Positions 2,202 through 52,244 of a stretch of DNA of 64,000 nt are shown here, piece after piece (the stretch's first letter is position 1; each line of letters starts with the position of its first letter). The position numbers and the translations under genes were made by a program. Source of the stretch: a virus; the IMG/VR virus record IMGVR_UViG_3300032050_000009, positions 62,001 through 126,000 of that record, one strand, 5' to 3'. A model generated the notes under the pieces. It was not told the DNA's origin. It saw nothing but the letters and a program-made list of their open reading frames with translations, and made no database searches.

Positions 2202-3146
2202 ATGAAATTAAGAATCCATAATCCAACTAATGAGATTACAAAAAAAAATCGTGATTATAATGTTTTTTGGGATGATTTAACTATTGAACTAAAAAAAAAT
2301 AACGAAGTTTATGAAAACAGATTTTTTGAGCAAGCTCATTTTGATAGATTTAATGTGAATTTTAAATCTTTATCAAAACAAGACGGATTATTAATGTTAG
2401 AATGCGAATATCTCATAGAAAATATTGAAACGGGTGATTTTTTAATTTTTTCAGTGGCAGATGATTTAACACACTGTATATTAGATGAGAGAAGTAACCC
2501 AAAACTAAAAAAAGTTTTTGTTTCTCAATTTATAGACTATAAAATAAAACATCACGTAGATGATTATTTTGAAAAATATTCTCCTTGGATTTATTTTCCT
2601 AGTTTTGATGTTGATTTAGAGCAATTTTACCAAAAAAGAAAGGAGAAAAACTCATTTGTTGATAAATTATTTTTTAGGGGGGCAACCGCACATAGACCAA
2701 TTATTAACCATTTTGATAGAAACATTTTAGAAGGATTAAATCCGATAAATACTAATGACTATTTTAATGAGCTAATAAATTACAGCATTGGTTTATCAAT
2801 TGCGGGGGTCGGAGAATTATGTTATAGGGATGTGGAATATATGGCATTAGGAATTCCATTTATACGGTTTGAGTTCCAGTCTCAATTAATTGAGCCATTA
2901 ATACCAGGACATCATTATATTTCAATACCGTATGATAATTCTATCCCAAAACATAACGAAGTTTTTACAGACAGATTAGGAGAATTTAATCACGCAAAAA
3001 TTATTGAGAGTAAATTTAAAGAAATAATTAACGATAAAGAATATTTAAAATTTGTTGGCGAAAACGCAAGAAAATATTATGAAAAGAATTTATCAAAAAA
3101 ATCAAGATTAGAAAACTCAATTAAATTAATAAATGAAATATTATGA
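2202..3146 (+). CDS. Probable GT-B glycosyltransferase (GT90/exostosin-like)
   Basis: The 314-residue product has a C-terminal half like nucleotide-sugar-binding GT-B domains: LFFRGATAHRPI near residue 155, then SIGLSIAGVGELCYRDVEYM and ALGIPFIRFEF (about 195-225), and LIPGHHYISIPY further on. In GT90/CAP10 and exostosin-like enzymes the arrangement 'FRG...', 'G.GE..YR..E.MA.G.P' and 'P..HYI' is characteristic. The N-terminal half is not diagnostic. Its stop overlaps the next gene's start (ATGA-type, 3143-3146), so translation is probably coupled. Its role within the cluster is inferred to be transfer of one sugar onto a phage or host glycan; donor and acceptor cannot be told from sequence. 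Confidence 0.65.
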   Translation: MKLRIHNPTNEITKKNRDYNVFWDDLTIELKKNNEVYENRFFEQAHFDRFNVNFKSLSKQDGLLMLECEYLIENIETGDFLIFSVADDLTHCILDERSNPKLKKVFVSQFIDYKIKHHVDDYFEKYSPWIYFPSFDVDLEQFYQKRKEKNSFVDKLFFRGATAHRPIINHFDRNILEGLNPINTNDYFNELINYSIGLSIAGVGELCYRDVEYMALGIPFIRFEFQSQLIEPLIPGHHYISIPYDNSIPKHNEVFTDRLGEFNHAKIIESKFKEIINDKEYLKFVGENARKYYEKNLSKKSRLENSIKLINEIL

Positions 3147-5395
3147 AAACTTTAATATATACATCAATATATTCTAACCTATGGGGTACCGAATTTGGAG
3201 GGAGACCTAGCAGAGAATTGCATTATAAATATAGTTTATTATCAATTTTAAAACTTAATCCTGATAAACTAATATGTTTCACTAGCGAGGAAGAACTGGG
3301 TGAGTTAAAATCTTGGTTTTATGAAATAAATAAAATTTCAGAAGATAAATTAGAATTTATTGTTTTTGATTTAACTGAAAGTCGTTTTTTCAATGAAATT
3401 AGAAATTTAAAAAATTTGTCAGAAATTATAACTTCGGATAGATGTTATGAAATACAATATAATAAATTTTTTTGGTTGGAAAACATTACAAATATTGAAG
3501 ACTATGAAAAAATTTATTGGTTTGATGCCGGACTATCCCATGGGGGGTTATTTCCTGAAGAGTATTCTTATGGACAAGGGTTCCAAAAACATTTTTCATT
3601 TACAGTATTTAATGAAGATTATTTAAATTACTTAAATACAATAACTAAAGACAAAATTGTGATTGTTAGTAAAAACAACAGCGGTAGATTTTATTGGAGC
3701 TCCTCAATTCCAACAAAGTATTATGACAGTTATAACAATAGTGAACATATTATTGGTGGTTTTTTTGGGGGAAACGTAAGCTTAATGGTAGAATTTAAAA
3801 ATCAATTTGAAAAAATACTTTTTTCATTATTAACAAATGAATCCGAATTATATCATGAAGAATTGATTATGTCTTTTATGTATTTTAATAATCCTGTACT
3901 GTTTACGCCATTAAAATTTGATGATTGGTATAATAGAAATAATCCAGAAACAAATAGTTTAATTATTAAGTATTTTTATGAAATTTTTAAAATAAAATCC
4001 TCCTCTAAAATTTGCATCGCAACCTCTTGTATTGAGATTAATGGTGGAAGTCATTATGTCGAAAAAACTAAAAATCTTATAGAAAGTTATTTAAAATATA
4101 CAAAATATGATTTAGTCATATTAACTAACCAAATGAAACAATTTGAGGAAATAAAAAATTACCGAGTTAAATTTTTTAATTACTACGATAATTTTAATGA
4201 GCCTTTAACATCGGCAAACTTTTTTAATATGCACCTAAAACGGTTACCAATTAAATTATCATTAAATTTAGGATATGAAATTATTTTTTATAATGATTGT
4301 GATTGTTTTATAACAGGATGGGATAATGATAGTTTTATAGAAAAATGTAATGAAGATTTTGATGTGGCATTTGTTTCCCACGCCAATCCCCAATTGGGTG
4401 GATTGAGGTCTATTTATAAACATTTTCAGGATAAGATAGATATTGAATTTAATGAACTATATTATGATGAATTAGATAACGCTCCAAATCCGGCCGAAAC
4501 TAGAGTCATTTTCAAAAAAAATGAAAAATTAATTAAATTTTTACATTTTTGGGATTTAGTTTCTTATAAAAACAACGATTATTTTACATACCATGATGGT
4601 GTTTATTTTGGAACATCGGCGATATACTCAGGTATGAAAATGATTGGAATAACTCCATTCGATGAATTTACAAAATATTGTAGAATAAGTCATGATGGAG
4701 GCGAATTAGACTATTTTGGTATTAAAATTATAGAAAACACGGTTGATATGGAACAAAATCATACAGAAATTGAAAGTTATGTTCACGGCTCCTTTAATTA
4801 TAAAGGACTTTCTATGTTACAACATAGAAATATAAATGATAAATTTAAGAAATTGTTAGAAACGACTAAACCAAAAAAAATTATAGAAATTGGTACTGAG
4901 TTCGGTGGGCTAACACTTTTGTTACAAGACATTGTACATGAATTAAATTTAGATACTATCATAAGAACTTATGATATAAAAGACCCAGTTTTTCTTTTAA
5001 GTCACCCTGAGTTAAAAGATAACGTTGAAATTATAAAAAAAGATTTATTTTTATATAATCCATTTAGATTATCAGAAAATTCTACCAAAGAACTCAAAGA
5101 GTTTATGTCAGATGACGGGGTTAACATAATATTATGTGACGGAGGGGATAAAAAAAATGAATTCAACGCTCTTTCAAAAATACTGAATGATGGTGATATA
5201 ATCATGTTACATGATTATATTACAGATGAACACGAGTTTCAAGAAAAATTTTTAAATAAAATTTGGAATTGGCACGAATCAAAATTTTCAGATATTGAAA
5301 TCTCAGTTAAGGAAAATAATTTAGAACCTTTTATGCCTGATGATTTTTTACAAGTCGTATGGGGTTCATTTATTAAAAAAAGAAATGAGGGCTAA
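3143..5395 (+). CDS. Three-module protein: HtrL/YibB-like domain + GT-A-like domain + class I SAM methyltransferase-like domain
   Basis: A 750-residue fusion. Module 1 (about 1-280) matches the HtrL/YibB family (PF09612), with YWFDAGLSHGG and FFGGNVSLM. Module 2 (about 290-545) looks like a GT-A glycosyltransferase: it begins KICIATSCIEINGG and carries a DxD-like FYNDCDCF, then YFTYHDGVYFG. Module 3 (about 570-748) is a Rossmann methyltransferase or cephalosporin-hydroxylase-like domain: KIIEIGTEFGGLTLLL, ILCDGGDKKNEFNAL, IIMLHDYI, KIWNW. Modules 1 and 3 have clear paralogues in the gene at 6908-9277, where they occur in the opposite order. It overlaps both neighbours by a few bases. The cluster probably builds or caps a glycan; the precise chemistry of each module is inferred from family resemblance. 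Confidence 0.7.
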   Translation: MKTLIYTSIYSNLWGTEFGGRPSRELHYKYSLLSILKLNPDKLICFTSEEELGELKSWFYEINKISEDKLEFIVFDLTESRFFNEIRNLKNLSEIITSDRCYEIQYNKFFWLENITNIEDYEKIYWFDAGLSHGGLFPEEYSYGQGFQKHFSFTVFNEDYLNYLNTITKDKIVIVSKNNSGRFYWSSSIPTKYYDSYNNSEHIIGGFFGGNVSLMVEFKNQFEKILFSLLTNESELYHEELIMSFMYFNNPVLFTPLKFDDWYNRNNPETNSLIIKYFYEIFKIKSSSKICIATSCIEINGGSHYVEKTKNLIESYLKYTKYDLVILTNQMKQFEEIKNYRVKFFNYYDNFNEPLTSANFFNMHLKRLPIKLSLNLGYEIIFYNDCDCFITGWDNDSFIEKCNEDFDVAFVSHANPQLGGLRSIYKHFQDKIDIEFNELYYDELDNAPNPAETRVIFKKNEKLIKFLHFWDLVSYKNNDYFTYHDGVYFGTSAIYSGMKMIGITPFDEFTKYCRISHDGGELDYFGIKIIENTVDMEQNHTEIESYVHGSFNYKGLSMLQHRNINDKFKKLLETTKPKKIIEIGTEFGGLTLLLQDIVHELNLDTIIRTYDIKDPVFLLSHPELKDNVEIIKKDLFLYNPFRLSENSTKELKEFMSDDGVNIILCDGGDKKNEFNALSKILNDGDIIMLHDYITDEHEFQEKFLNKIWNWHESKFSDIEISVKENNLEPFMPDDFLQVVWGSFIKKRNEG

Positions 5396-6281
5396 AATTA
5401 TTCTCCATTGCATTTCAGGATTCGGGGACCAATATGCAAATATTTTGACAGGATACAAAGCATGTAAAGATTTTACTAATTTCGGGTACGAAGTTGAAAT
5501 TTTATGGATAAATAAAAATTTATACTTTTCTCCAGATTTACCTTTAGATTATCTTTATGACTTTAGTCTTTTTAAAAAAATGAATATAAAAATAAATTAT
5601 ATACATAATGAGTCTGAGATTTCAGACGGTTTTTTATATTTAAACACCGGTCAAAACGCAATAAAAATATTTGTTGACAAAATAATCGATGAAATTAATG
5701 AATATGAATTACCTGTTTTTGACTATTTTGGTTTTCGCAGAAACTCTTACTCGTCTTTTTGTCCTGAAAAATTACCTGATTTTGATTATCAGTTTATAAA
5801 TGAAGAAGTACTTGAAATTGGAAATAAGTTTATAGAAAAAAAATCAAAAATTAAATCTGTTCATTTTAGATGTGACGATTTATTTATTCTTTCAGATTAT
5901 GATATTGTACTCGAAGATGTTTTTTATAACTCAATGATTAATAGGGTTTACGAATTTATTGAAATGAATAATAATCAGGATATAATGATTTGTTCTAACA
6001 ATAAAAGTTTAGTAAAACATATTACAAAAAATTTCAAAAATACATTTTATAATACATTTGATAGTGACTTAGATTTACATTATTCATATAATAAAAATTA
6101 TGAAGAAATGATTAATATTAATCACGCTAGACAAATTGTGGCAGAAATGACCTTATTTTCAAGATGTGATAATATTTTCACTGTTAGTAAAAGTCTATCA
6201 AACTTTTTAACATACGGTGTTGCTCATAATCATTATCATAAGGACTGGGATACTAAAATAAAAAATTTAATAACTAATTAA
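5385..6281 (+). CDS. Probable fucosyltransferase-like (GT11/GT23-type) glycosyltransferase
   Basis: I start this 298-residue protein at the ATG at 5385, which overlaps the previous stop by 11 bases; an upstream in-frame ATG at 5340 would add 15 residues lying entirely inside the preceding gene and is less likely. It begins KIILHCISGFGDQYANILTG, reminiscent of the glycine-rich first strand of fucosyltransferases. The C-terminal half has VHFRCDDLF (the H-x-R type nucleotide-sugar site), IMICSNNKSLVKHI, and AEMTLFSRCDNIFTVSKS near the end, the order seen in GT11/NodZ-like enzymes. Strongly AT-rich, like its neighbours. The GT call is moderately supported; fucose as the sugar is a guess from fold-level similarity. 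Confidence 0.5.
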   Translation: MRAKIILHCISGFGDQYANILTGYKACKDFTNFGYEVEILWINKNLYFSPDLPLDYLYDFSLFKKMNIKINYIHNESEISDGFLYLNTGQNAIKIFVDKIIDEINEYELPVFDYFGFRRNSYSSFCPEKLPDFDYQFINEEVLEIGNKFIEKKSKIKSVHFRCDDLFILSDYDIVLEDVFYNSMINRVYEFIEMNNNQDIMICSNNKSLVKHITKNFKNTFYNTFDSDLDLHYSYNKNYEEMININHARQIVAEMTLFSRCDNIFTVSKSLSNFLTYGVAHNHYHKDWDTKIKNLITN

Positions 6282-6289
6282 AAAATATT

Positions 6290-6889
6290 ATGGATTGTTT
6301 TTCACAAATTGGTCAAGATAAAATAGTTTTAAAATACTTAAAAAATAAACAAAATGGTTTTTTTGTAGATATTGGTTGCGGATATCCTAAAAATATTAAC
6401 AATACTTATTTATTAGAAAGTAAATATAACTGGAACGGAATATCTATCGATTTAAATGATTGTAAAGAGGATAATGGTGAAGGATGGGAAAGTATACGTA
6501 AAACTAAAAGAATTCTTTCTGATGCTCTAACAATAAATTATTCTGATTTATTTAAAAATAATAATTTACCATATAATGTTGATTATTTAAGCTTGGATTT
6601 AGAACCACCAGAATTAACGCTAGAATGTTTATATAAAATACCTTTTGACGAGTATAATTTCAACGTAATCTCATTTGAGATTGACACTGGTAGAGAAGGT
6701 GATTATTACAGAATCTCAAAAAGCCGCGAATTTTTACAGTCTAAAGGTTACACATTAATTGGTTCTTTGTGTGGAGGGCAGGATGACATATATCTACATA
6801 ATTCAATATCTCACTTAAAAAATGAATTTAAATTTGAGGACCCATCAATTGAATGGACAACTTGGCCCCAATCTACATTATATAAATAA
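6290..6889 (+). CDS. FkbM-family SAM methyltransferase
   Basis: A 199-residue protein with the compact FkbM (Methyltransf_21) layout: SQIGQDKIVLKYL near residue 5, then GFFVDIGCGYPKNINNTYLL (motif I, SAM-binding glycine loop), NWNGISIDLN (motif II acidic residue), YLSLDLEPPE and NVISFEID (later strands). FkbM enzymes usually O-methylate sugars or small metabolites. It sits 8 bases after the fucosyltransferase-like gene and 18 before the second fusion gene, so it is in the same operon. Likely role: O-methylation of a sugar added by the neighbouring transferases, perhaps capping chain growth (inference). Length is typical for the minimal domain. Confidence 0.8.
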   Translation: MDCFSQIGQDKIVLKYLKNKQNGFFVDIGCGYPKNINNTYLLESKYNWNGISIDLNDCKEDNGEGWESIRKTKRILSDALTINYSDLFKNNNLPYNVDYLSLDLEPPELTLECLYKIPFDEYNFNVISFEIDTGREGDYYRISKSREFLQSKGYTLIGSLCGGQDDIYLHNSISHLKNEFKFEDPSIEWTTWPQSTLYK

Positions 6890-6907
6890 ACATTAAAAAT
6901 ATTAAAC

Positions 6908-9277
6908 ATGATTTTTCAAAATAAGATAACTAAAAAAAGTAATTTAGTAGATAACGATAGTTTGTCGGTTTATAATAATGAATGGGTTGCCCAACAAAAT
7001 CATAACGCATTCGAAATTTTCTTTTATTTCATAAAGGAGACCAGACCTAAAAGAATTTTAGAAATAGGAACTGCTCTAGGTGGATTTACTTATTTTTTAA
7101 AAGATACTTGTAATTCTCTAAATATAGATTGTGAAATAATGTCATTTGATATAAATGAAAATCATACATATGAAAAATTAAAAGAATTTGGAGTTGATGT
7201 GAGCGTTGAAAATATTTTTGACTCAAATTATACTACAGTTTCACAAAGTGTTATTGACTTTATTCAATCTGAAGGAACTACAATTGTATTGTGTGATGGT
7301 GGTAATAAAAAATTAGAATTTAATATTTTGTCAAATTATTTAAAAGAAAATGATTTTATATTAGGACATGACTATTCATACGATAAAGAATATTTTGATA
7401 ATAATATAAATCTTAAAATTTGGAATTGGTTAGAATTAACTGAAAAAGATATTGAGGAACCATGTAATAGAAATAATTTAGTTGATTACAGAAGAGATTT
7501 ATTCCAATCTGTTGTTTGGGTATGTAAAATGAAATCTGATGAAAAAATAAATGAACCTAAAGAAAATGAGAATATAGAAATTATGGAACCTGAGAACTTA
7601 AGTCACACAACTTTTGTAACAGGATTGTGGAACATTAAAAGAGATTCATTAACTGAAGGATGGTCTAGAAGTTTCGACCATTATTTGGAAAAATTTAATG
7701 AATTATTAAAAGTAAATGTTAACTTAATTATTTTTGGAGAAAAGGAATTAGAGTCTTTTGTTTGGGAAAGAAGAAGTAAATCAAACACGCAATTTATAGA
7801 AAGAAGTGTAGAATGGTTTAAGTCATCTGTACCGTATGAAAAAATTCAAGAGATTAGAAACAATCCTGAATGGTACGGTCAGTCAGGATGGCTTCCCGAC
7901 TCAACACAAGCGAAATTAGAATGGTATAATCCATTAGTCATGTCAAAAATGTTTTTACTACATGATGCAAAAATAATGGACCAATTTAATTCGGATGAAA
8001 TGTATTGGATTGATGCAGGATTATCAAACACGGTTCATCCAGGTTATTTTACTCACGATAAGGTACAAAATAAACTGAGTAAGTATTTTAATAAATTTAG
8101 TTTTGTTTGTTTCCCATACGAAGCGTCAAATGAAATTCATGGGTTTTCTTATCCTAAAATAAATGAATACGCCGGTTCAAATGTAAATTTGGTTGGTAGA
8201 GGAGGATTCTTCGGAGGACCTAAGGAAAGTATTTCTGAAATTAACTCAATCTATTATTCGATGTTGATTAATACCCTAACAGATGGATATATGGGCACTG
8301 AAGAATCAATATTTTCGATATTATTATACAAGTATTCTAATTTAATTAACTACTTTGAAATCGAAGATAATGGACTTATGGGTAAATTTTTTGAGGATTT
8401 GAAAAATGATACTTTAGAGGTCAAAACTAAACACACATTACCAAGTGGAGAACCTGTTAAAGATATTAGTAAGACATCACTATATGTGATTGGTTTTAAT
8501 AGTCCAAATCAACTAAAAACATTAATTCAATCTATGGTTGAATATGATGAGGATTTTATCAAAAAACCAAAGAAATATCTTTTGAATAACTCAACGGATA
8601 GAAGTACTGATTCGGGTTACGAAGAATTGTGTGCAATGTATGATTTTGAAATAATTAATCCTGGTGAAAACTTGGGTATATGTGGGGGTAGACAATTTGT
8701 TGCCGAACATTTTGATAAGACAGACTCAGAATTTTATTGGTGGTTTGAGGATGACATGTTTTTCTATCCAAAAAAAGGAGAAGTATGTAGAAATGGGTTT
8801 AATAGATACGTGAGTAATTTATACGATAAAAGTATGAGAATTGCTCAATCTGAGAATTTTGATTTTTTGAAGCTCAATTTTTCTGAGTTTTTTGGTGATA
8901 ATTCGGTGCAGTGGTCATGGTATAATACGCCGCAACATGTTAGAGAAGAGTTTTGGCCTCAAAATACTAAATTACCTCAAATGGGATTAGACCCAAATGC
9001 TCCGAGAACTGTCTTCAAAAATATTAAATCTTTAGATGGAGTTCCATATGCCGATGGAGAAATTTATTACTGCAACTGGCCACAAGTAATTTCTAAGAAA
9101 GGTAACCAAAAAATGTTTTTAGACACAAAGTGGGCACACCCATACGAACAGACTTGGATGTCGTTTATGTATCAGGAAACTAAAAAGGGTAACTTAAATG
9201 GTGGAATATTATTGATGACTCCTACTGAGCACAACCGTTTTGAACACTACGCGGCCGAACTTAGAAAAGAAAGTTAA
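6908..9277 (+). CDS. Three-module protein: methyltransferase-like domain + HtrL/YibB-like domain + GT2-like domain
   Basis: A 789-residue fusion. Module 1 (about 45-215) is a Rossmann domain paralogous to the C-terminus of the 3143-5395 product: RILEIGTALGGFTYFL, IVLCDGGNKKLEFNIL, FILGHDYSYD, KIWNWLE. Module 2 (about 232-500) is HtrL/YibB-like: TTFVTGLWNIKRDS, EMYWIDAGLSNTVHPGY, GRGGFFGGP. Module 3 (about 520-789) is GT2-like, with SLYVIGFNSPNQLKTLIQS, PGENLGICGGRQF and the acidic WWFEDDMFF metal site near residue 611. The shared modules are in the reverse order to the earlier gene. It ends the glycan cluster, overlapping the convergent HNH gene by 4 bases. The activities are inferred from folds and motifs; acceptor unknown. 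Confidence 0.7.
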   Translation: MIFQNKITKKSNLVDNDSLSVYNNEWVAQQNHNAFEIFFYFIKETRPKRILEIGTALGGFTYFLKDTCNSLNIDCEIMSFDINENHTYEKLKEFGVDVSVENIFDSNYTTVSQSVIDFIQSEGTTIVLCDGGNKKLEFNILSNYLKENDFILGHDYSYDKEYFDNNINLKIWNWLELTEKDIEEPCNRNNLVDYRRDLFQSVVWVCKMKSDEKINEPKENENIEIMEPENLSHTTFVTGLWNIKRDSLTEGWSRSFDHYLEKFNELLKVNVNLIIFGEKELESFVWERRSKSNTQFIERSVEWFKSSVPYEKIQEIRNNPEWYGQSGWLPDSTQAKLEWYNPLVMSKMFLLHDAKIMDQFNSDEMYWIDAGLSNTVHPGYFTHDKVQNKLSKYFNKFSFVCFPYEASNEIHGFSYPKINEYAGSNVNLVGRGGFFGGPKESISEINSIYYSMLINTLTDGYMGTEESIFSILLYKYSNLINYFEIEDNGLMGKFFEDLKNDTLEVKTKHTLPSGEPVKDISKTSLYVIGFNSPNQLKTLIQSMVEYDEDFIKKPKKYLLNNSTDRSTDSGYEELCAMYDFEIINPGENLGICGGRQFVAEHFDKTDSEFYWWFEDDMFFYPKKGEVCRNGFNRYVSNLYDKSMRIAQSENFDFLKLNFSEFFGDNSVQWSWYNTPQHVREEFWPQNTKLPQMGLDPNAPRTVFKNIKSLDGVPYADGEIYYCNWPQVISKKGNQKMFLDTKWAHPYEQTWMSFMYQETKKGNLNGGILLMTPTEHNRFEHYAAELRKES

Positions 9278-9861
9278 ATTATAACTTTATTACTTTTTTT
9301 CAAATTATCTTCAGCCCAAAGGGGCTGAAGATTTGTATAATGACATAGTTTAAAAATTTCATCCTCAGTTTTTGCAATTGACAAAGGGGTTATATGGTCA
9401 ATATGGATATATTGACCAACTAACTCCCAACTCATACCCTCAGTAAATTTAGATTCTATGTATTCCTTTAAGAATTCAGGGGTACATCCTATAATTTCAA
9501 ATGTTTTTCCCTTTTTAAAAGATTTCTTTGATTTAAGAAATAGTTGTAATCTGGCTCTCATAATGACCTTCAGTCTATATATTATATCGGTCTTATAATT
9601 ATACATAGCCCATTCTTTCTGATAAGTTGGATTTTTCTCGAACCACTTTTTTTTAGACGTTTTAACCTTTTCTTTGTTTTTGTTAACATATTTTTGTTTT
9701 ATAAGGTTAATTTTTTGTTTGTTTTTTTTATTGTAAATTACTGATAATTCATTAGAACAAATTTTACACTCAGGTCTTTTTCCATCACGACTTTTTTTTC
9801 TGTTGTAAAACTCACAAACCTCTTTTTCAATACCACATTTACTACACACTTTTGTTTCCAT
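9274..9861 (-). CDS. HNH endonuclease
   Basis: A 195-residue minus-strand gene. The N-terminus holds two Cys pairs (CSKCG at 6-10 and CKIC at 32-35), a zinc-ribbon-like module. A Lys-rich middle follows. The C-terminus has the HNH core: HIDHITPLS around residues 153-161 (D155, H156), TNLQPLWAEDN around 176-186, and N191 in NLKKSNK. Such free-standing HNH proteins are usually homing or group I-like mobile endonucleases in T4-like phages. It overlaps an upstream 51-aa ribbon-helix-helix gene by 20 bases, suggesting coupled translation, and lies on the opposite strand to both flanking gene sets, consistent with an inserted mobile cassette. Confidence 0.9.
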   Translation of the reverse strand: METKVCSKCGIEKEVCEFYNRKKSRDGKRPECKICSNELSVIYNKKNKQKINLIKQKYVNKNKEKVKTSKKKWFEKNPTYQKEWAMYNYKTDIIYRLKVIMRARLQLFLKSKKSFKKGKTFEIIGCTPEFLKEYIESKFTEGMSWELVGQYIHIDHITPLSIAKTEDEIFKLCHYTNLQPLWAEDNLKKSNKVII

Positions 9862-10096: not shown

Positions 10097-10112
10097 AAGA
10101 TAAAATAGATTG

Positions 10113-12224
10113 ATGGAATTCTTAATTAAGAAAAATGCAACTCTCCCACTTTTAAAGTTACAGGTAGTTAAGGACGGTAGAAGTGACTACAATAATTTTA
10201 TGAAACTTATTGAAGTTTCATCAATCTATTTTTCTATGACGGACCTTGAGACGGGAATTCCAAAAATAATGTCTCGTCCTGCAGGTTTTGTTGAAAAAAC
10301 TTTTGATGACCCAAATGCAGAAACTGAGTATTATCTATACTACCAATTCACTTCTACCGACACCAATATGGAAGGTAGGTTTGAGGGCCAGTTCATGCTT
10401 AGAAACTCTGAAGGAGTTTTGATTCTACCAATTAGAGAAAAATTATATATTTCAGTTCAGGAATCATTTATTGCTAATGATTTAAATTATGAAAGTTGTT
10501 ATGTTTCAGAATTTCCATGTTGTATTGAATCACCTATTGAACCTATTTGTCCTCCGTGTCCTACTTTACCTCCTCCATCATCAACACCACAACCTACACC
10601 ATCGGTAACTCCTAATTATTGTAAAATATTTCCATCCGAAGAGCAAGATATATCAATATTTGACGACTCTGAGGCCTCAGTATATCCCGTTACATTTTTA
10701 GTTTATGGTATAACTAATGCCATAGATAGTATAAGTTTAACTTTAAATGGATATAGTCATACTTATGTTGGCGATGTTGGTATGATATTATTATCACCGG
10801 ATGGTTTAAGATATTCTATAATAACAGGGAGGAAAGGGTCTGTTTATGGTATAGATAACGGAACTGTCACGTTAAGCACATTGTCAAATACTTTATGGGA
10901 CGGACACTCAACCGGAAATTTTATAAATGACCCTTATGTTTATGAAACAGTTTTATTTGGTTCCCCATGTCCATATCAGTTTATCCAAGGTCAGTCTACT
11001 TTGGACTTGAGTGTTTTTATAACTGAGACTCCAGCTGAATATGCAAATGGTTTATGGACTTTATATATTCAAGATTTCGCTCCTGAAGACGAAGGTTTTC
11101 TACAGTCAGCGACCTTGACCATATGTGACTCTGGAATTCCAAGAACACCAACACCCACACCGACTCTAACCCGTACCCCAACATTAACTCCTGGGTTGGT
11201 TATAAAAATGAATTTATTTGGATTAATAAGTCCTGGTTCAGTTAATATAGAATATTATTTGGTTATAGATAAGCCATTTTTTGATGATATAATATTAGAA
11301 TTTACTCATGTCTTATTATCGTCAGGTGGTGAAATAGAGATTACATCTCAAATAGAAATAGATAAAGAGAAAACATCAAATGTATTAACATTAACATTAG
11401 ACTATGATTTTGAGTCACTTAGCGGAACCAGTTATTTTAAAAATGTTAATATTATACCTGCCGAATATTCTAACAAATTCATAGTTACTGAGATTGTAGA
11501 ATTCAATTATCCGACACCTACACCGACACCTACCCCAACTCCAACACCTCAATGTAACTTATATTTGGCGACTGATTTTGATTTTGATTATGTTCTTATT
11601 ACTGAGGACTTCCAAAATTTAGTATTAGAAGAAACCTGTAATTTAATTAACATAAACGCAATTTATTATGAAGTTTTAGGTGGCATTTTATTTACGTATA
11701 CCGTAACTTCATCATATCCGGTCGATACCGACGTTGAGGTATCGTTCCAAAACATTATTGGTTATGGATACGAATCTGTACAGTTATTTAATTTGTCACT
11801 TGTGATTTCAGCAGGAACTCAATCGGCTCAAACTTTATTCTACGATTTTACAACTCCATATTCAAGTTATTATGGGGTATCGGCGTTTTACGAGGTTGGA
11901 ACTTCGGTGACGGGATATACTTCATATGGTTACAGTGTTTATACAAATTATAGTTTTGTACCTCCGATTAATAACCCGGTTATCCCTCCTGCTCCGACAG
12001 ACTTAATTCCAACTTCTTTACCTCCAACTCCTACACCGACTAATACTCAAACATCAACTAATACACCAACCCCAAGTGTTACGAATACTAATACTCCAAC
12101 TACTAGTGAAACCCCAACTCCAACCCCTACCCCTACATCAACACCTCCGGTACCACCTTTGACAATAATAGATACATTGACAGACCCTAATGGAGAAAAT
12201 CTAAAAGGTGTTATTGTAATTTAA
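10113..12224 (+). CDS. Multidomain adhesin/fibre protein with a P-domain and Pro/Thr linkers
   Basis: 703 residues from the ATG at 10113 (a TTG at 10110 would add one residue). The layout is beads on a string. Residues 1-146 form an N-terminal beta-rich domain, probably the virion anchor. A Pro/Thr linker follows at ~147-168. Residues ~170-343 resemble the proprotein-convertase P-domain: GDVGMILLSPDG, a long beta region, then LWTLYIQDFAPEDEGFL and ATLTICD. A second linker is at ~344-360, an Ig-like domain at ~361-466, a linker at ~467-480, another beta domain, and a long linker at ~633-683. P-domains normally follow a subtilisin catalytic domain; none is present here. Likely a surface-binding fibre decorated by flexible linkers. 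Confidence 0.65.
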   Translation: MEFLIKKNATLPLLKLQVVKDGRSDYNNFMKLIEVSSIYFSMTDLETGIPKIMSRPAGFVEKTFDDPNAETEYYLYYQFTSTDTNMEGRFEGQFMLRNSEGVLILPIREKLYISVQESFIANDLNYESCYVSEFPCCIESPIEPICPPCPTLPPPSSTPQPTPSVTPNYCKIFPSEEQDISIFDDSEASVYPVTFLVYGITNAIDSISLTLNGYSHTYVGDVGMILLSPDGLRYSIITGRKGSVYGIDNGTVTLSTLSNTLWDGHSTGNFINDPYVYETVLFGSPCPYQFIQGQSTLDLSVFITETPAEYANGLWTLYIQDFAPEDEGFLQSATLTICDSGIPRTPTPTPTLTRTPTLTPGLVIKMNLFGLISPGSVNIEYYLVIDKPFFDDIILEFTHVLLSSGGEIEITSQIEIDKEKTSNVLTLTLDYDFESLSGTSYFKNVNIIPAEYSNKFIVTEIVEFNYPTPTPTPTPTPTPQCNLYLATDFDFDYVLITEDFQNLVLEETCNLININAIYYEVLGGILFTYTVTSSYPVDTDVEVSFQNIIGYGYESVQLFNLSLVISAGTQSAQTLFYDFTTPYSSYYGVSAFYEVGTSVTGYTSYGYSVYTNYSFVPPINNPVIPPAPTDLIPTSLPPTPTPTNTQTSTNTPTPSVTNTNTPTTSETPTPTPTPTSTPPVPPLTIIDTLTDPNGENLKGVIVI
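11143..11190 (+). repeat. Pro/Thr codon repeat linker (after P-domain)
   Basis: A run of near-identical ACN CCN codon pairs encodes alternating Thr-Pro between the P-domain and the next Ig-like domain. Similar tracts occur at 11511-11550 and 12010-12160 in the same gene. Such tracts can expand or recombine by slippage. Confidence 0.75.
11511..11550 (+). repeat. Pro/Thr codon repeat linker
   Basis: An almost pure (CCN ACN)n tract encodes about thirteen alternating Pro and Thr residues, joining two beta-rich domains of the fibre protein. Confidence 0.8.
12010..12160 (+). repeat. Long Pro/Thr/Ser/Asn-rich repeat linker
   Basis: About fifty residues of imperfect TPTP, TNTP and STPP units near the C-terminus of the fibre protein. 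Base usage is biased to A and C on the coding strand, unlike the rest of the gene. Confidence 0.75.
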
Positions 12225-21016: not shown

Positions 21017-21796
21017 TTATTTTTGACCAAAGTTTACAGGTCCTTTTATACTCTCTAAAATTTGGGTTTTTGTGGTCTTTACTGACTCATTAGTTTCCTT
21101 ATCAGTTTTCAACTTGTAAAGTTCATTTACAAATTGCCAATTTACTACATCCCAAAAATTTTTAATATACTCGTCTCTTTTACTTTGGTATTTTAGATAA
21201 TACGCATGTTCCCAAAGGTCCAAACCTAGCAAAGGATATCCACCATCAATAACATTCATAAGTGGATTATCTTGATTGGCGGTTGACATAATCTTTAATT
21301 TATTATTCTTGGTTAAGATTAACCAAACCCATCCCGAACCAAATCTATCTTTAGCAGTTTCCTCAAATTCTTGTTTGAACTCATTAACACTACCAAAATG
21401 TTTTTTAATTTTTTCTATAACTTCACCTTCGGCCTTTTGTTTTTTTGGTGACAACATTTTCCAAAACATTGCATGATTAAAAGCCCCACCGGCGTTATTT
21501 CTAATTTTGTTATTATATCTACTTATTGATTTTACAATTTCCTCGAGTTCAACATCACCATAATCTTTTTTTGACAAAGCGTCGTTTAATTTTTTGACAT
21601 ATGTTTTGTAGTGATTGTTATAATGAACATCCATTGTTTTAGAATCAATGAAATTTTTTAAAGAAGAATATGAATATGGTAATTTATCGATACCAATTCG
21701 TTTCATTTCAGTTATAAGAAAGTTTTGATTATCTTTCTTTTCTTGTAAAATAATTTCTTCCTTAAGTAATTCGGCTTTAGACTCTAAGTTTTTCAT
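21017..21796 (-). CDS. sodA: Superoxide dismutase, Fe/Mn family, Mn-type residues
   Basis: 259 residues from the ATG at 21796. All four metal ligands are present: His58 in DVHYNNHYKTYV, His108 in NNAGGAFNHAMFW, and Asp193 and His197 in LDLWEHAYYLKYQ. The second-shell Gln that separates Mn- from Fe-type enzymes is in the Mn position (Gln175 in STANQDNPLM, with Gly in NNAGG), so Mn or cambialistic use is predicted. It converts superoxide to peroxide and oxygen. There is no signal peptide; the N-terminal ~40 residues are an extra charged helix absent from typical ~200-residue SODs. It sits between gp13 and a helicase gene with its own late-promoter-like octamer, so late expression or virion association is possible. 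Family call is very strong. Confidence 0.93.
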   Translation of the reverse strand: MKNLESKAELLKEEIILQEKKDNQNFLITEMKRIGIDKLPYSYSSLKNFIDSKTMDVHYNNHYKTYVKKLNDALSKKDYGDVELEEIVKSISRYNNKIRNNAGGAFNHAMFWKMLSPKKQKAEGEVIEKIKKHFGSVNEFKQEFEETAKDRFGSGWVWLILTKNNKLKIMSTANQDNPLMNVIDGGYPLLGLDLWEHAYYLKYQSKRDEYIKNFWDVVNWQFVNELYKLKTDKETNESVKTTKTQILESIKGPVNFGQK

Positions 21797-21813
21797 CAAG
21801 ATATTTTATAGAT

Positions 21814-31827: not shown

Positions 31828-33657
31828 ATGATGTATCAACCAACACCAGGAGGCTCAAATCAGGAGGCAGCGAGTGATTTTTATGATTACGTAAGTAAAT
31901 TGGGTAGTAAAAGTATGGAAGCCTTTTTTGGCAACTTTTACCCAGGATTAAGAAATCTTGTTAACACAGTTCAAGAAATTGACGCTGACGCCACTAAAGT
32001 GGCTAAAACTTTTGGACAAGGTAGAGAAAATATTGCGGGTATTAAAATTGCGTTGGTCGACGCTGCGACTTCAGTTGAGGCTTTGGGAGGTAAATTTGTT
32101 GATGTTGCAAAAATACAAACTGACTTAACTAATAGTTTAGGTAGGTCGGTTATGCTAACATCAGAATCATACGACGACATTTTTGCAACAACACAAGTAA
32201 CTGGACAAGAAGCTGGAAAACTGTTTACTAGTTTTAAAAATATTGGGACATCCGCTTATGGTGTTGCCTCCGGAATGCAAAAAATTGTTGACACCGCTAG
32301 ACAACAAGGTCTTAGTGTTGAGAAGGTTAGTGAGCAGGCGATGAGTAATATGGAATCAATGAACAAGTACAATTTTCAAGGGGGTGTTGACGGATTGGCT
32401 AAAATGGCAGCCCAAGCAACTAGTTTAAGAATTGATATGGCAACTACTCTTAATTTTTCAAATGATTTATATAAGCCCGAAAAGGCGATTGAAATGTCAG
32501 CGGCACTCCAAAGACTTGGGGTTACTCAGTCTGAATTGTTGGACCCACTAAGATTAATGGATTTATCTATTAATGACCCAACAGAACTTCAAAATCAGTT
32601 AGTACAAATGACTCAACAATTTGTAACTATGAATGAAGCCGGACAATTTGAGATTGCTCCTGAGGGAAAACTTAGAATGAGAGAATTAGAACAAGCCACT
32701 GGAATTGCGTATGGAGAGTTAACAAAAATGGCTTTAGGTTCCGCAGAATTAGAAAATAAGTTGTCTAAAATAAGATTTCCTGAGTTTATGACCGAAGAGC
32801 AACAAAAAATGGTTGCAAATTTGTCCGAAATGAAGGATGGTCAATATGTAATATCAATTGATGGTACAGAACAAAACTTACAAGAGTTACTTGCTAGAAC
32901 AGATAGTCAGGAAGAAATTAACAAAATATTAGAGGCTGCCAAACCTAAAACAATGGAAGATTTGGCTAAGGAACAGTTGAACCTCCAACAAAGTATGGAA
33001 GCGAGCTTAGCAAAAATGGCCGGGAGAACCTCAAGAGCGTTGGCGACATCTAAAATAGGTGAGGAAGTTACTGAGGCGATAAAAGAAGGTTATACAAATA
33101 TGACAGATGTTGTAACCGATAGAGATGTTATGTCGGCAAAAAGTATTCGTGAGTTGTTTAACATTGCGGACCCTAAAGAGATGACGAATTTAATGAAAGA
33201 TGTTTTGTCAGGTAAAGATGTTGATGTTGGAGGAAAATTCATGGAAATGGGTGAAGATGCCGGAGGTTTATTAGGTGAACAAATGAAAAGTTTGGCTCAA
33301 AATTTGGCCGAACAAGGAAAAAAATTAGAAGAGTCTGATAATATATTTGCCGGTGTTGTAAATACGTTAGTTGATGAACTTTCTGGATACATAAAAGAAG
33401 TTAGTGGAGTTGACATAAAAGCAAAAATTGCGGAATATCAAGGTAATGAAACACAGTCAACAAAAACTACCCCACAAACCAATACACAAACTATTAACAA
33501 TAATTCAACTGTGGATGTAAATATAAAATTAGATGTTCCACCTGGAATGTCAGTTCAAGAAGTTTCAGACGCATTAAGAACCGAACAAATTAAACAAGAA
33601 ATAGTTAAAATTGTTGAGGAAAAATATCCCGACCTTAAGTTAAAACCAGCACATTAA
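31828..33657 (+). CDS. Tail tape measure protein (T4 gp29-like position)
   Basis: 609 residues, close to T4 gp29 (590), so a tail of similar length is expected. Almost wholly alpha-helical, Ala/Lys/Glu/Met-rich, with coiled-coil stretches such as VQEIDADATKVAKTFGQG, ATSLRIDMATTLNFSNDL and LNLQQSMEASLAKMAG. The end is a short Thr/Asn/Gln linker (about 560-580) followed by a small strand-helix cap (VDVNIKLDVPPGMSVQEVSD). It sits right after the chaperone gene and before the baseplate genes, the universal position of tape-measure genes. It starts at ATG 31828 (or the next codon). Function follows from length, composition and order, not from a family signature. Confidence 0.72.
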   Translation: MMYQPTPGGSNQEAASDFYDYVSKLGSKSMEAFFGNFYPGLRNLVNTVQEIDADATKVAKTFGQGRENIAGIKIALVDAATSVEALGGKFVDVAKIQTDLTNSLGRSVMLTSESYDDIFATTQVTGQEAGKLFTSFKNIGTSAYGVASGMQKIVDTARQQGLSVEKVSEQAMSNMESMNKYNFQGGVDGLAKMAAQATSLRIDMATTLNFSNDLYKPEKAIEMSAALQRLGVTQSELLDPLRLMDLSINDPTELQNQLVQMTQQFVTMNEAGQFEIAPEGKLRMRELEQATGIAYGELTKMALGSAELENKLSKIRFPEFMTEEQQKMVANLSEMKDGQYVISIDGTEQNLQELLARTDSQEEINKILEAAKPKTMEDLAKEQLNLQQSMEASLAKMAGRTSRALATSKIGEEVTEAIKEGYTNMTDVVTDRDVMSAKSIRELFNIADPKEMTNLMKDVLSGKDVDVGGKFMEMGEDAGGLLGEQMKSLAQNLAEQGKKLEESDNIFAGVVNTLVDELSGYIKEVSGVDIKAKIAEYQGNETQSTKTTPQTNTQTINNNSTVDVNIKLDVPPGMSVQEVSDALRTEQIKQEIVKIVEEKYPDLKLKPAH

Positions 33658-33695: not shown

Positions 33696-36600
33696 ATGTC
33701 AGAGAGCACTTTATCATTTGCATCTAGTGAATCTTTTCGTAAATCACTTATTGTAAGAAATTTACAACCTTATTCTGTTACAGGTGTTTATACTCCACCG
33801 TCTGGCGATATAACTTATGAGTATAATCAATCTGATTTTTCAGTAATTGATTCACCTGATAAATTGATTGCAAAAAATCCATTTGCAAATCAATTATATC
33901 CTCTTAATGAATTTGGACCATCGGGTGGATTTGATTTCAACATCAACTATAATGGACCTCTTGTTCCAGTAAAACCAACCGCTCAACCGTACTATCCATT
34001 AATTGATAGCCCCTTAGTCGGGTTGAGTAATTATTGGTTAAATGAATTAGTTACAGGTCCTGCAAATCAAAACAGCTTTATACCCGATGGAGGATTCAAA
34101 TTTTTATATGAGGTTGACGATTTACCTAACTTAAATAAATATTTTTCGCCTTATTGGGACCCACCAACATTTGTTCCATCATTTTATAGTCCGTATGAGA
34201 TATTAACATCTACAAATCCGGTTGGTTCAGACGGACCATTATCACAAGATTCATTTATCGCTCGTTTAGGTGCTCAAACATTAAAGGAACTTTTTATTGA
34301 GAGAATTAATTTTGAGATTTATCAAAACACGGTAGGGGCTGTCAACTTAGCTAGTTTACAGGACCCATTCGAGGCTAGTTTATTAATAACAGGTCAACAA
34401 CCTTTAGTTTACAGAAATTGGAGAATTACCGTACCTGAAAATCCTATATTAGCGGCGGTTGATTTTGCGACAAGATTAGCTGGTGCTTATTGGCCCGTGT
34501 CACCAATACCTGGTGATTATTTTGATGAAAACACCAACGGTAATTTACAGACCAGTCAAACATCAACGGCATTAAATGTTACTAATAATTTAACAGGTGG
34601 TTTTTTAGGACCGATTTTAAATATAACTAGAAATCCATCCGAAATATTTTTAGCAAATACAGGAAATGGACAAAGGTCGGCACTATTCAATAATATAGAT
34701 TATAATAGATATAGACCCGCATATGATAGAGGATTATTAGGTACTTTAGCTCAAGGGTTGACAAACCTACTAGCATCCGCAATTAATCCTAATAATGGAA
34801 CGTTAATAGGTGGTTATTATGTTGGAAGTAATACTTCAGAACCTTCACAAATAAATTCACCACCCAATCAGTTGCCAATAAATCCATATGGACAACAGGT
34901 CCAAACACCTGTTTATGGTCCATCCGAATTAGCTATATTATACGAAGGAAATCAAGAAGTTCTTAATTTTGGATTAGCTGGAAAATCTTTATCAGATGGA
35001 GGAGGAATTGATGGTCAATTTGTTTGGACATCGCCAAAATATAAAGGAAATGCGGGATACAAACCAACACCAGGTGGCGGAGCGGGAAGTTTGGACGAAC
35101 AATTCAATTTAGTTAGTTCTAATTATACTCGTGACTCATCAACAAATATTGATTTTAAAGATAACTCAATATTAGACCAAACTCAAAGGTTAATTGAATC
35201 TGCTGACTTAGTAGAAGGTATTGCTAGATTAAAACACGTAGGTAATGCAATCAATCAAGTTTCTAAAGTATTCAATGATGGATATAAAGAAATGACTAAA
35301 GGTTCTAAAGTTTTATCTTATGTTGATAATACCACAGGAACTCAAGCGGGTATTGAATATTGTAGAGTCTTTGCTAAAGATACTCCTTACTATACCTACT
35401 CTGATTTACAAAAGACTGAGGGTATTACTAATTCAGGAAGAAGATTTTCATATTCCGTATTAGATAACACCTTCAATTTGAATATTTCTCCAACTAAAAA
35501 CCCTGGCTCAACAAATATTATTGCTGACGGAAATAACGGAACAGGTGGGTATGCTAAAAAATATATGTTCTCTATTGAAAATTTAGCGTGGAGAACATCC
35601 AGTAGACCCGGATATACCTATGACGAACTTCCAACATGTGAAAAAGGTCCAAATGGGGGTAGGGTAATGTGGTTTCCTCCATATGATTTAAAATTTAGTG
35701 ATACAAGTAAACCAAGTTTTAGTCCGACTTCTTTTTTAGGTAGACCTGAGCCGATTTATACATATAAAGACACTAGTCGTAGTGGAACTTTAAGTTGGAC
35801 TATTATAGTTGATAGTCCTTCAATTATGAATTTAATTATTGAAAAACAATTGAAAGGTACTGCAAGAGAAAGAGTTGATTCTATTATTGATTCCTTTTTT
35901 GCGGGGTGTGTAAAGTACGATATATATGAGTTAGCCCAAAAATTTAATACTATACCGGCCAAGGATTTATATACCTACCAAGAAATTTTGAATAATCCAC
36001 AATTAACCGAAGAAGAGGTAAACTATGTTGTTGAATCAATACCAAAAGACCCTGAAGTTTGTGTGTCGGATTTATGGGGAGATGTTCCTGAAACTAAAAA
36101 AGTGTCTAATGAGCCTGAATTAGAAGCATTTGCCGATACCTATACTAATTTGTCATTTTATTTTGATAATAATGTGCCAGGGCCTAATAATGGTACAACA
36201 TCGAATGAGGATTATTTGAGTGCTTACAACTCATATGTTAGTAATAAACAAGTTTACGGAGCTCAGGCTAATAATTTATTTAATACTGATGATTTTAATG
36301 GTAATGTTCTTGATTTCTTTGATAATGTTATAACAAATAATTTTGAAAAAATTAATAGTGGTTCATCTTGTATGGTACAAGATTTATATAAGATATTATC
36401 AGAACAAAAGGGAACTATTGTTATAACTTTAGAAGGTGCGGCTTCGGCTAAGGCAACGCCTGAATATAATCAAAAATTATCCGAAAGAAGAATTGATTCT
36501 GTAATAAAATATTTACAAAATTATTCTGAAGGTGATGTTTCGTTTAAAAAATATTTAGAAGACGGTTCTTTAAAAATAAATTCTGCCGGAGGGTCTGGTG

Positions 36601-38750
36601 AAAACACAACAATTCCGGTTGGGGAAGGTAATATATCTCAAGACCCAATTAATTGTACCGAAGAAACTAAAGATAAGAACGGTAAAACTAATCAAGGTTC
36701 GTTAATTTATTCTGTAAGTGCTATGGCCTGCAGAAGGGTAAGGATTACTAGTATTAACTATACCGATATACCAAAAGAAGAAACGACATTTGTTAATAAA
36801 GTTACAGGTCAAACAACTACAATTGAAAATCCCCCTTCTGACGAAACATCAGGACAAGGTATAACCCCTCAGTTTCCAAAACCACAACCAACCATAACTA
36901 TTGAGAAGAAACTAAAAGAAGGTATTAGTAAAAAAATATTAAGAAACTTATTAAGTGAATGTGATTATTTTGAGGTACTAAAACAAGACGTACCAATGGT
37001 ATATGATTCGATTAAAGAAAAAATTAAATATTTTAATCCGGCGTTCCACTCAATGACACCTGAGGGTTTAAATGCTAGATTAACTTTCCTTAATCAGTGT
37101 ACTAGACCTGGAGAAACAGTTCCTACTATAGGAGCGGATGGTAAACCAAAAACAAATGATGCAATTAACACTTCATTTGGAGCTCCCCCCATTTTAATAT
37201 TAAGAATTGGAGATTTTTATAATTGTAAGATAGTGCCTGATAATATAGCATTTACATATGAGCCATTAATTTATGATATGAATCCTGAGGGTATTGGATT
37301 ACAACCAATGGTGGTGAAAGTTCAAATGTCTTTTTCCATGATTGGAGGACATGGATTGAAAGAACCAGTTGACCAATTGCAGAATGCGTTGTCATTTAAT
37401 TATTATGCTAACACAGAAATTTATGATGAAAGGTCAACATGGACTGATGATTCATGGAAAGTAATTGATAAGAAATTAATAGACTCAATTGAACAGTCAG
37501 AACAACCAGCAACAGTTGCTAATGTAGAGAACCAACGAACTAATGATGGAGGAACAACAATTGGTGAAATTATAACTAATATACCTGTTGAAAGTGGTCA
37601 AACTGGTGAAATAGCATATCAAAAAATAATGGATACCCTGTTTGACCAAACAAAAGGATATATTGATGCGGTTCCTAATCTTTTAGAAAAAATAATGTTG
37701 AATACAAACCAAGGTATTGTTCAGATTATAAGTAATAATAGATTATATAGTGAAGGTTTACTTAATGTTGATTTGGATGAAGTTGGCTCGGCTCCAATTT
37801 ACGGAGCCCCAAATAAAATGGACGCGAAAATAAAAGAAATTTTTGATAAAGTAATATTAGAAATTCAGGACCAAACTAACCCAATTATTAGTGAATTAAA
37901 CACTATTGAATGGCAACCAAAAGATTTATCTGCGGTCATTACCAATATGGTCGATTATATTAATTCTCTTTCTTCTGAATTCTCAAACGGAATATTCACT
38001 ACTATACAGGAATTAGTTTTGTTGGAACAAGATTATGTGCAAAATTTAAGAAAAATAAATTTGGTTGCAGATTTAACTGATGGTAAAATTATTGATAAGG
38101 GAGTTCCAAGACCCTACACTCTTTCGGGAACTGATAAGGTGAGTGAATCAACAACCATTGATGACGATACTATAACAACAACAGATGATGAATTGTGGAA
38201 TGATATTGCGAGATTACAATTAACGCTAGAAGAGTATTATGAATTTTTACAAGATAAAAAGATATTTGAACCAATAGGTGATTTTACTGCAGATTTTATC
38301 CCGATATATCAAGATTTTATAGGTAATGCAGAGTCACCAACACCGGAAAAAACATTCTTTTTAGTTGTCGGTAGAATTTTTGATAATAGAACAAAACGTC
38401 AAGAATTTGTAAATGCGGTAATAAAAGGTGATTTAGAAAATGTAAAAGACCCACAAAAATTAAAAAAGAAATTCGAGGATATTGTTGATGATTTAGCTAA
38501 AGAATACAGTAAAGAAATTTCCGCCGAAGAAAAGTTATATAAAGACTTTAAGAAAAGTAGTGAATTTAAAGATTTTTCTGAAGGTTTGGACGAAAAACTA
38601 TACCCTAAAGGAAAAACTCGTAAATTTACTTATACCACAGTACCTGGAACTGATGCGGAAACTCAAAAAACTGCTATTTCACAGTTATATAGTGGAGGAA
38701 ATACCGGTGAGGATAGTACATATATAGGAAAAGCAAAATTCAATTCATAA
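33696..38750 (+). CDS. Giant baseplate/tail structural protein with OmpA-like domain
   Basis: 1684 residues. The first ~880 are Asn/Pro/Gly/Tyr-rich, like baseplate or tail-hub scaffolds (WTIIVDSPSIMNLIIEKQLK and similar). Residues ~895-985 resemble an OmpA-like peptidoglycan-binding domain: GTIVITLEGAASAKATPEYN then LSERRIDSVIKYLQ. The usual Asp of the ligand site is Ala here, while the Arg after LSER is kept, so binding may be weakened. Further on, LILRIGDFYNCKIVPDNIAF and VVKVQMSFSMIGGHGLKEP look like a conserved baseplate module, and the last ~250 residues are Lys/Glu-rich helix. It lies directly before a LysM protein and the hub giant, so a cell-wall-facing baseplate part is likely. No close family is recognised. 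Confidence 0.65.
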   Translation: MSESTLSFASSESFRKSLIVRNLQPYSVTGVYTPPSGDITYEYNQSDFSVIDSPDKLIAKNPFANQLYPLNEFGPSGGFDFNINYNGPLVPVKPTAQPYYPLIDSPLVGLSNYWLNELVTGPANQNSFIPDGGFKFLYEVDDLPNLNKYFSPYWDPPTFVPSFYSPYEILTSTNPVGSDGPLSQDSFIARLGAQTLKELFIERINFEIYQNTVGAVNLASLQDPFEASLLITGQQPLVYRNWRITVPENPILAAVDFATRLAGAYWPVSPIPGDYFDENTNGNLQTSQTSTALNVTNNLTGGFLGPILNITRNPSEIFLANTGNGQRSALFNNIDYNRYRPAYDRGLLGTLAQGLTNLLASAINPNNGTLIGGYYVGSNTSEPSQINSPPNQLPINPYGQQVQTPVYGPSELAILYEGNQEVLNFGLAGKSLSDGGGIDGQFVWTSPKYKGNAGYKPTPGGGAGSLDEQFNLVSSNYTRDSSTNIDFKDNSILDQTQRLIESADLVEGIARLKHVGNAINQVSKVFNDGYKEMTKGSKVLSYVDNTTGTQAGIEYCRVFAKDTPYYTYSDLQKTEGITNSGRRFSYSVLDNTFNLNISPTKNPGSTNIIADGNNGTGGYAKKYMFSIENLAWRTSSRPGYTYDELPTCEKGPNGGRVMWFPPYDLKFSDTSKPSFSPTSFLGRPEPIYTYKDTSRSGTLSWTIIVDSPSIMNLIIEKQLKGTARERVDSIIDSFFAGCVKYDIYELAQKFNTIPAKDLYTYQEILNNPQLTEEEVNYVVESIPKDPEVCVSDLWGDVPETKKVSNEPELEAFADTYTNLSFYFDNNVPGPNNGTTSNEDYLSAYNSYVSNKQVYGAQANNLFNTDDFNGNVLDFFDNVITNNFEKINSGSSCMVQDLYKILSEQKGTIVITLEGAASAKATPEYNQKLSERRIDSVIKYLQNYSEGDVSFKKYLEDGSLKINSAGGSGENTTIPVGEGNISQDPINCTEETKDKNGKTNQGSLIYSVSAMACRRVRITSINYTDIPKEETTFVNKVTGQTTTIENPPSDETSGQGITPQFPKPQPTITIEKKLKEGISKKILRNLLSECDYFEVLKQDVPMVYDSIKEKIKYFNPAFHSMTPEGLNARLTFLNQCTRPGETVPTIGADGKPKTNDAINTSFGAPPILILRIGDFYNCKIVPDNIAFTYEPLIYDMNPEGIGLQPMVVKVQMSFSMIGGHGLKEPVDQLQNALSFNYYANTEIYDERSTWTDDSWKVIDKKLIDSIEQSEQPATVANVENQRTNDGGTTIGEIITNIPVESGQTGEIAYQKIMDTLFDQTKGYIDAVPNLLEKIMLNTNQGIVQIISNNRLYSEGLLNVDLDEVGSAPIYGAPNKMDAKIKEIFDKVILEIQDQTNPIISELNTIEWQPKDLSAVITNMVDYINSLSSEFSNGIFTTIQELVLLEQDYVQNLRKINLVADLTDGKIIDKGVPRPYTLSGTDKVSESTTIDDDTITTTDDELWNDIARLQLTLEEYYEFLQDKKIFEPIGDFTADFIPIYQDFIGNAESPTPEKTFFLVVGRIFDNRTKRQEFVNAVIKGDLENVKDPQKLKKKFEDIVDDLAKEYSKEISAEEKLYKDFKKSSEFKDFSEGLDEKLYPKGKTRKFTYTTVPGTDAETQKTAISQLYSGGNTGEDSTYIGKAKFNS

Positions 38751-50368: not shown

Positions 50369-50374
50369 TTTTTT

Positions 50375-50834: not shown

Positions 50835-50856
50835 CAAAAACGAACAAAAATTTACT

Positions 50857-52239: not shown

Positions 52240-52244
52240 TTAAT

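Follow-up and report, generated by a model that had tools for sequence, protein, structure and literature searches.

A GT60-bordered, exchangeable glycosyltransferase cassette in a large tailed phage and its possible role in virion O-glycosylation

Described glycosylation systems and the locus in the window

Glycosylated phage particles are already known, and in bacteria the O-antigen and capsule loci have constant border genes that flank replaceable glycan genes. Virion glycosylation in mycobacteriophages was reportedly described by Freeman and colleagues in 2023. Here, we analyze a stretch of 64,000 nt from IMG/VR (hereafter the window), which covers bases 62001–126000 of the 173,397-base virus record IMGVR_UViG_3300032050_000009 and comes from a tailed phage that encodes a tail sheath, a baseplate, replication proteins, and ribonucleotide reductase. 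The locus of interest starts with a GT60-type gene (P0001) and ends with a fusion gene (P0006) whose last 2 modules, an HtrL-like module (H) and a glycosyltransferase (GT), are together called H-G2. Between them lies another fusion gene (P0003), which joins H, a different glycosyltransferase (hereafter the second GT), and a CmcI-type methyltransferase module (M). We read this locus as one for virion O-glycosylation with exchangeable, O-antigen-like elongation genes, and put the probability of this reading at about 0.6.

In the Xanthomonas jumbo phage XacN1, at least 2 glycoproteins have been reported (PMC5852040). Its ORF328–ORF334 region resembles the window locus in that GT60 (ORF334), a carbamoyltransferase, H (ORF332), the second GT (ORF331), and H-G2 (ORF330) occur in this order, but it has no methyltransferase fusion in that stretch. 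In the available text of the XacN1 paper, ORF328 and ORF334 are the only glycosyltransferases named and nothing is said of cassettes (PMC5852040). As to the GT60 family, excerpts on Trypanosoma cruzi state that its enzyme TcOGNT1 makes GlcNAc-alpha-Thr in mucin-like proteins (PMC9472816), and the likeness to the window covers both the family and a Thr-rich, mucin-like acceptor (PMC9472816; PMC3769586). By contrast, the T. cruzi system belongs to a eukaryotic Golgi, whereas that of the window is phage-encoded, includes cassette methyltransferases, and has a predicted activity. The pelagimyophage host recognition cluster is also a hypervariable island with glycosyltransferases near tail genes, but the available part of its description interprets it as modifying the host O-chain and reports gradual divergence, not complete replacement (PMC7029224). 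For Moraphages, the accessible text lists 4 core glycosyltransferase groups (PMC12619734). The passage citing the mycobacteriophage work contains no mention of GT60, H-G2, or cassette exchange, and compared with the bacterial O-antigen and capsule loci, the locus described here lies in phage genomes and has an initiator of the protein-acceptor type. Among the matches listed in our literature searches, as far as their visible text goes, no prior description of a GT60/H-G2 cassette was found.

Constant borders and the DNA between them

The left border, P0001 (945–2195, + strand; 416 aa), encodes a GT60-type GlcNAc-transferase that scores 223 bits (cut-off 21) against PF11397, which we take to be CAZy GT60. 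It matches phrog_24687 (glycosyltransferase) with an E of 9e-164, and has no sequence match among solved structures. The right border is the H-G2 core of P0006 (7592–9277, + strand), in which H spans ~7592–8407 and the GT ~8450–9274. Sampling of related loci was biased, as H-G2 and the fusion peptides served as queries and the best 80 of at least 595 H-G2 stretches in IMG/VR were kept; after removal of near-identical entries, 98 of 139 loci and 105 of 166 cores remained. Open reading frame (ORF) counts are over 182 stretches that include the window and exclude its copies (L001, L002, L050, L088–L091, and L097). All trees are quick trees with no bootstrap, and rows were thinned at 90% identity for M and 80% for H.

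The 2 borders go together. Of 61 non-redundant loci that extend at least 5 kb to each side, 60 have a GT60-type gene alongside H-G2, and across 50,697 phage records GT60 matches are found only in XacN1, CM1, and RAS14, which are also those matching H-G2 (over 70–71% of P0006). An Acidobacteria metagenome-assembled genome (MAG; L189) has GT60-H-M-G2 in one ORF of 1196 residues, and a Vicinamibacterales MAG (L188) has a GT60-H ORF cut at the stretch end; assembly error is possible in both, and such single-ORF links suggest a single pathway. A search of the N-terminal parts of L181 and L184 for a divergent GT60 or H found neither.

By contrast with its borders, the DNA between GT60 and H-G2 is often replaced wholesale between close relatives. 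We compared 81 non-redundant close pairs—i.e. pairs sharing at least 80% identity in GT60 and in H-G2 alike—and found less than 20% of the interval aligned in 43, more than 80% in 36, and an intermediate share in only 2. In 42 of the 43 swapped pairs, homology ends no more than 30 nt from the GT60 stop (the left breakpoint), and in 38 it resumes no more than 30 nt from the first H residue (the right breakpoint). For example, L126 and L121 have GT60 genes that are 94% identical, then no match over 4.6 and 5.9 kb, and then 9.7 kb at 90% identity. The intervals of the 98 loci sort into 27 types by single linkage, and the 367 interval ORFs, counting fused H-G2 ORFs that start inside the interval, fall into 67 families, with 27 singletons. 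The 1.5 kb downstream of H-G2 is mostly kept (more than half aligned in 22 of 33 swapped pairs), whereas the 1 kb upstream of GT60 varies with or without a swap (12 of 30 and 10 of 29 pairs more than half aligned), so a conserved flank is seen on the downstream side only. Because the block is swapped as a unit, the glycan would vary while the borders stay constant.

The H-G2 core is itself well conserved (mean column identity of 58% in 10 diverse members), and 4 types of methyltransferase are found at its N-terminus: CmcI-like (4), TylF-like (8; best E 2.1e-28 to PF05711), FkbM-like (10; best E 2.7e-18 to PF05050), and a fourth, weakly assigned type (4). These are strewn over the H-G2 tree as if at random, with 21 changes for 22 bearers among 103 of the 105 cores (2 fused cores were left out), compared with a mean of 20.2 (range 16–22) in 200 shuffles. 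Specifically, L066 has no N-terminal domain, while L065 and L067 carry TylF on cores that are at least 95% identical. In our reading, these N-terminal methyltransferases lie outside the right border, with the cassette.

The remaining cassette genes of the window are P0002 (2202–3146, + strand; 314 aa), a probable transferase with no Pfam or other family match whose family numbers 20 ORFs and is joined to an M module in L030, and 2 genes between the fusions, the unassigned P0004 (5340–6281, + strand; 313 aa; 11 relatives) and the weakly FkbM-like P0005 (6290–6889, + strand; 199 aa; PF05050, E 0.086, below cut-off). We compared 20 representatives of interval families with Pfam; at E up to 0.01, 13 gave a match and 7 did not. 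The families matched, some below cut-off, include GT25, GT10, a PLOD-type GT, GT7, FkbM, carbamoyltransferase, nucleotidyltransferase, and methyltransferase.

GT25, GT10, and FkbM families occur in lipopolysaccharide (LPS) or capsule loci, and HtrL/YibB of E. coli is found among the LPS core genes. The cassette contents could hence belong to enzymes that alter LPS or other host surface glycans in the course of infection and shut out competing phages, which is how the glycosyltransferases of the pelagimyophage cluster were interpreted in the available text (PMC7029224). We consider this unlikely, as the cassettes have a constant partner of GT60 type, a family known for protein acceptors, and the phages encode mucin-like proteins of their own; the glycoproteins published for XacN1 also speak for a virion target (PMC5852040, in the text available).

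Several arrangements were seen around the borders. GT60 copies flank H-G2 on both sides in L062 (2550–3797 and 11038–12291) and L054 (4149–5396 and 9721–10974). The isolate Jiulongibacter sediminis carries 2 GT60 genes, FkbM-H-G2, and a Thr/Pro-rich ORF on a 1.3-Mb contig (L180, 2453–9650), as a prophage or a host locus. A carbamoyltransferase adjoins GT60 both there (L180, 5743–7311) and in XacN1 (L092, 11089–13386), and the glycan may be carbamoylated as well. In Neisseriaceae bacterium TC5R-5 (L182, L183), H and the last GT are encoded apart, each by a gene on a contig of its own, and a GT60 precedes the last GT. In the window, an Endonuclease VII/HNH-type gene (9274–9861, − strand; phrog_1035, E 2.5e-18) overlaps the end of H-G2 on the opposite strand, and could be involved in locus exchange.

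Two fusion proteins built from different neighbors

P0003 (3143–5395, + strand; 750 aa) consists of H (residues 1–284; 3143–3994), the second GT (~285–540; ~3995–4762), and M (~541–750; ~4763–5392), whereas P0006 (6908–9277, + strand; 789 aa) consists of M (1–215), H (~229–500), and the last GT (~515–789). Both ORFs lie where the initial annotation had them, and its description of H + GT + M against M + H + GT is confirmed, as is its proposal that the modules are paralogous. Specifically, the 2 M modules are 37% identical over 182 aligned columns (BLASTP, E 1e-28), and the H modules, with an E of 2e-4 by BLASTP alone, reach a probability of 98.7% and an E of 1.5e-16 over 235 columns when profile is compared with profile. 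The strings CDGG(D/N)KK and KIWNW, which had been noticed as equally spaced, are 41 residues apart in both proteins. Iterated hidden Markov models (HMMs) converge for both H modules on one set of 133 ORFs and for both M modules on one set of 40, whereas the models of the 2 remaining GT modules gather 41 and 83 ORFs with none in common.

Structure prediction, which had been suggested as a check, agrees with this pairing. In the AlphaFold2 models (mean predicted local distance difference test scores of 89.0 and 89.8), both M modules have a predicted CmcI fold (Z 17.3 and 17.4, the former for P0006; root-mean-square deviation 2.9 and 3.1 over 172 and 171 residues), and both H modules a predicted GT6-type GT-A fold (Z 13.3 and 14.6). 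The predicted template modeling scores are 0.53 and 0.51, so the domain arrangement within both fusions is unsure, and residues 215–230 of P0006, a linker, are modeled with low confidence. Together with this linker, M of P0006 (6908–7591, + strand) falls with the cassette, short of the right breakpoint as placed from relatives. The last GT of P0006 was earlier labeled GT2-type; a Pfam search at E up to 1 gives no GT2 family for it, and its predicted fold is GT-A (Z 14.5 to B4GALNT1).

Family assignments by profile differ among modules. H of P0006 is above the cut-off of HtrL_YibB (PF09612; 55 bits vs. 24.1), while nothing in Pfam matches H of P0003, which thus falls short of that gathering score, and 1 of 13 stand-alone-type H ORFs matches PF09612 (E 1.2e-6). 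Both M modules stay below the gathering cut-off of RMNT_CmcI (PF04989; 21.0 and 16.1 bits vs. 23.2), and a stand-alone M relative in L127 scores 33.0 bits. The H-G2 profile has no sequence match in the PDB. For the second GT of P0003, neither a credible Pfam match among 23 members nor a PDB sequence match was found, and it is barely covered by the fold-search rows; we leave its family unnamed.

The initial annotation had attributed the 2 module orders to permutation of one three-module protein, possibly with a GT2-type module replacing the other GT. True permutation would mean that the window phage or its ancestors duplicated one fusion gene and rearranged the modules, which would account for the homologous H and M modules. 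However, every M and H of the window is closer to relatives outside the window phage than to its counterpart. M of P0003 falls in one group with its counterparts from other H-GT-M proteins (Shimodaira–Hasegawa-like approximate likelihood ratio test, SH-aLRT, 96), which a P2-M protein joins next (88), whereas M of P0006 groups with other M-H-G2 proteins (SH-aLRT 99), and H modules of the H-G2 type are almost separate from the others (4 changes over 119 rows). Separate genes also outnumber fusions: H-G2 occurs as a single ORF 136 times, H alone 108, the second GT alone 55, and M alone 39, compared with 4 H-GT-M and 4 M-H-G2 fusions, one of each being a near copy. Given these trees and GT modules that are unrelated at the HMM level, we reject a permutation inside the window phage and regard permutation in general as close to negligible. 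Replacement by a GT2-type module likewise does not hold, as H-G2 forms a conserved unit in its own right.

Judged by gene order in relatives, the 2 fusions formed by the joining of 2 different sets of neighbors. H, the second GT, and M are there mostly separate and often adjacent genes, so the 2 orders reflect different neighbors that were fused. M immediately precedes H-G2 in 19 of 105 non-redundant loci, and the second GT precedes M in 7; in XacN1, the adjacent ORF332 and ORF331 correspond to the first 2 modules of P0003 and are followed by H-G2 (ORF330). Both H before the second GT (2 of 105) and the second GT before H (4 of 105) are found; gene order is therefore not fixed. What stands of the earlier proposal is its broader part—i.e. 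a modular glycosylation system remodeled by phages.

Candidate acceptors and the proposed pathway

Downstream of H-G2, the window encodes a Thr/Pro-repeat protein (10110–12224, + strand; 704 aa; P-domain match PF01483, E 9.6e-7), the proposed glycan acceptor, with 4 TPTxTxTPT sites (0 in shuffles). Upstream of the locus, at bases 50213–55510 of the record, lies a 1765-residue ORF rich in long Thr/Pro repeats. All 20 GT60/H-G2 records chosen for size contain the coding pattern TPTxTxTPT, each at 9 to 157 sites, and none contains the reversed pattern; the coding pattern is absent from 9 other phages (T4, P-SSM2, phiKZ, G, Atu_ph07, KVP40, Lu11, Bellamy, and DSL-LC02). A Thr/Pro-rich ORF falls within the sampled stretch at 43 of 61 loci, and over all loci 164 of 167 such ORFs run in the same direction as H-G2. 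XacN1 has 34 sites, all in coding orientation within 11 large ORFs; ORF350, next to a structural protein, is one of these, and so are ORF369, ORF370, and ORF372 near tail sheath genes.

Some observations weigh against our reading. One locus of the 61 (L051) has no detected GT60, and 18 of the 61 have no Thr/Pro-rich ORF nearby. The repeats of XacN1 and RAS14 lie elsewhere in the genome, none adjoining the locus, and the available text of PMC5852040 does not link the XacN1 glycoproteins to particular genes. Conversely, GT60 is found in only 18 of 42 repeat-bearing contigs of at least 40 kb (drawn from 80 listed of at least 119 found); many of the 24 without it are fragments. With GT60 so far short of all repeat-bearing contigs and repeats missing near 18 loci, the 2 could also co-occur through a shared phage lineage, the real acceptor being another virion protein. 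This is quite unlikely in our view, as distant relatives such as XacN1 and RAS14 (9 sites) carry both, the XacN1 sites are confined to coding strands of large ORFs, and Bellamy and DSL-LC02, which have H-like genes in glycan operons, have no GT60 match and no repeat site.

DNA-modifying phage glycosyltransferases are known, and the last GT of P0006 weakly matches phrog_842 (beta-glucosyl-HMC-alpha-glucosyltransferase; E 0.062), as might be expected if the enzymes glycosylated modified bases in phage DNA. PF00303 (thymidylate synthase/dCMP hydroxymethylase) is present in 11 of the 20 GT60/H-G2 records, but it is absent from the other 9 and from the window record, which may be incomplete; the search covered PF00303 alone among the routes to hydroxylated bases. 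We deem a DNA target very unlikely.

Under virion O-glycosylation, the GT60-type enzyme (945–2195) would start a glycan at Thr residues of Thr/Pro-repeat proteins that the phage itself encodes, and the cassette glycosyltransferases and sugar methyltransferases (2202–6889, and M of P0006) would lengthen and cap it. The constant H-G2 protein (7592–9277) would contribute a common part of the glycan, and the block from GT60 to H-G2 would move as one unit between related phages, as in bacterial O-antigen and capsule loci, with H-GT-M and M-H-G2 fusions forming where adjacent genes are joined. The acceptor, sugars, and order of steps are what we infer from the genes, and the purpose is probably a change in particle recognition. 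We give about even odds to a wider statement, namely that large tailed phages have a mucin-type, probably O-methylated coat on Thr/Pro-repeat virion proteins, made with their own GT60 initiator and altered by whole-cassette swaps between constant borders. This would be a counterpart of serotype switching, with methyltransferase-HtrL fusions as by-products at the right border.

Elsewhere in the window, we note a Fe/Mn superoxide dismutase gene (21017–21799, − strand; PF02777, E 1.5e-40), a 609-aa protein amid tail genes with a weak sulfotransferase match (31828–33657, + strand; PF19798, E 0.0029, below cut-off), and a 1684-aa protein with a weak OmpA-like match (33696–38750, + strand; E 1.1e-4, below cut-off).

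If our reading is true, these phages vary their surface glycans as bacteria vary O-antigens, by swapping elongation genes as a block, and a widespread locus couples a mucin-type initiator to mucin-like proteins. It would also explain the abundance of Thr-Pro repeats in these phages, and indicate that methyltransferase-glycosyltransferase fusions can form at a recombination border. The reading yields testable predictions for the chemistry of the virion.

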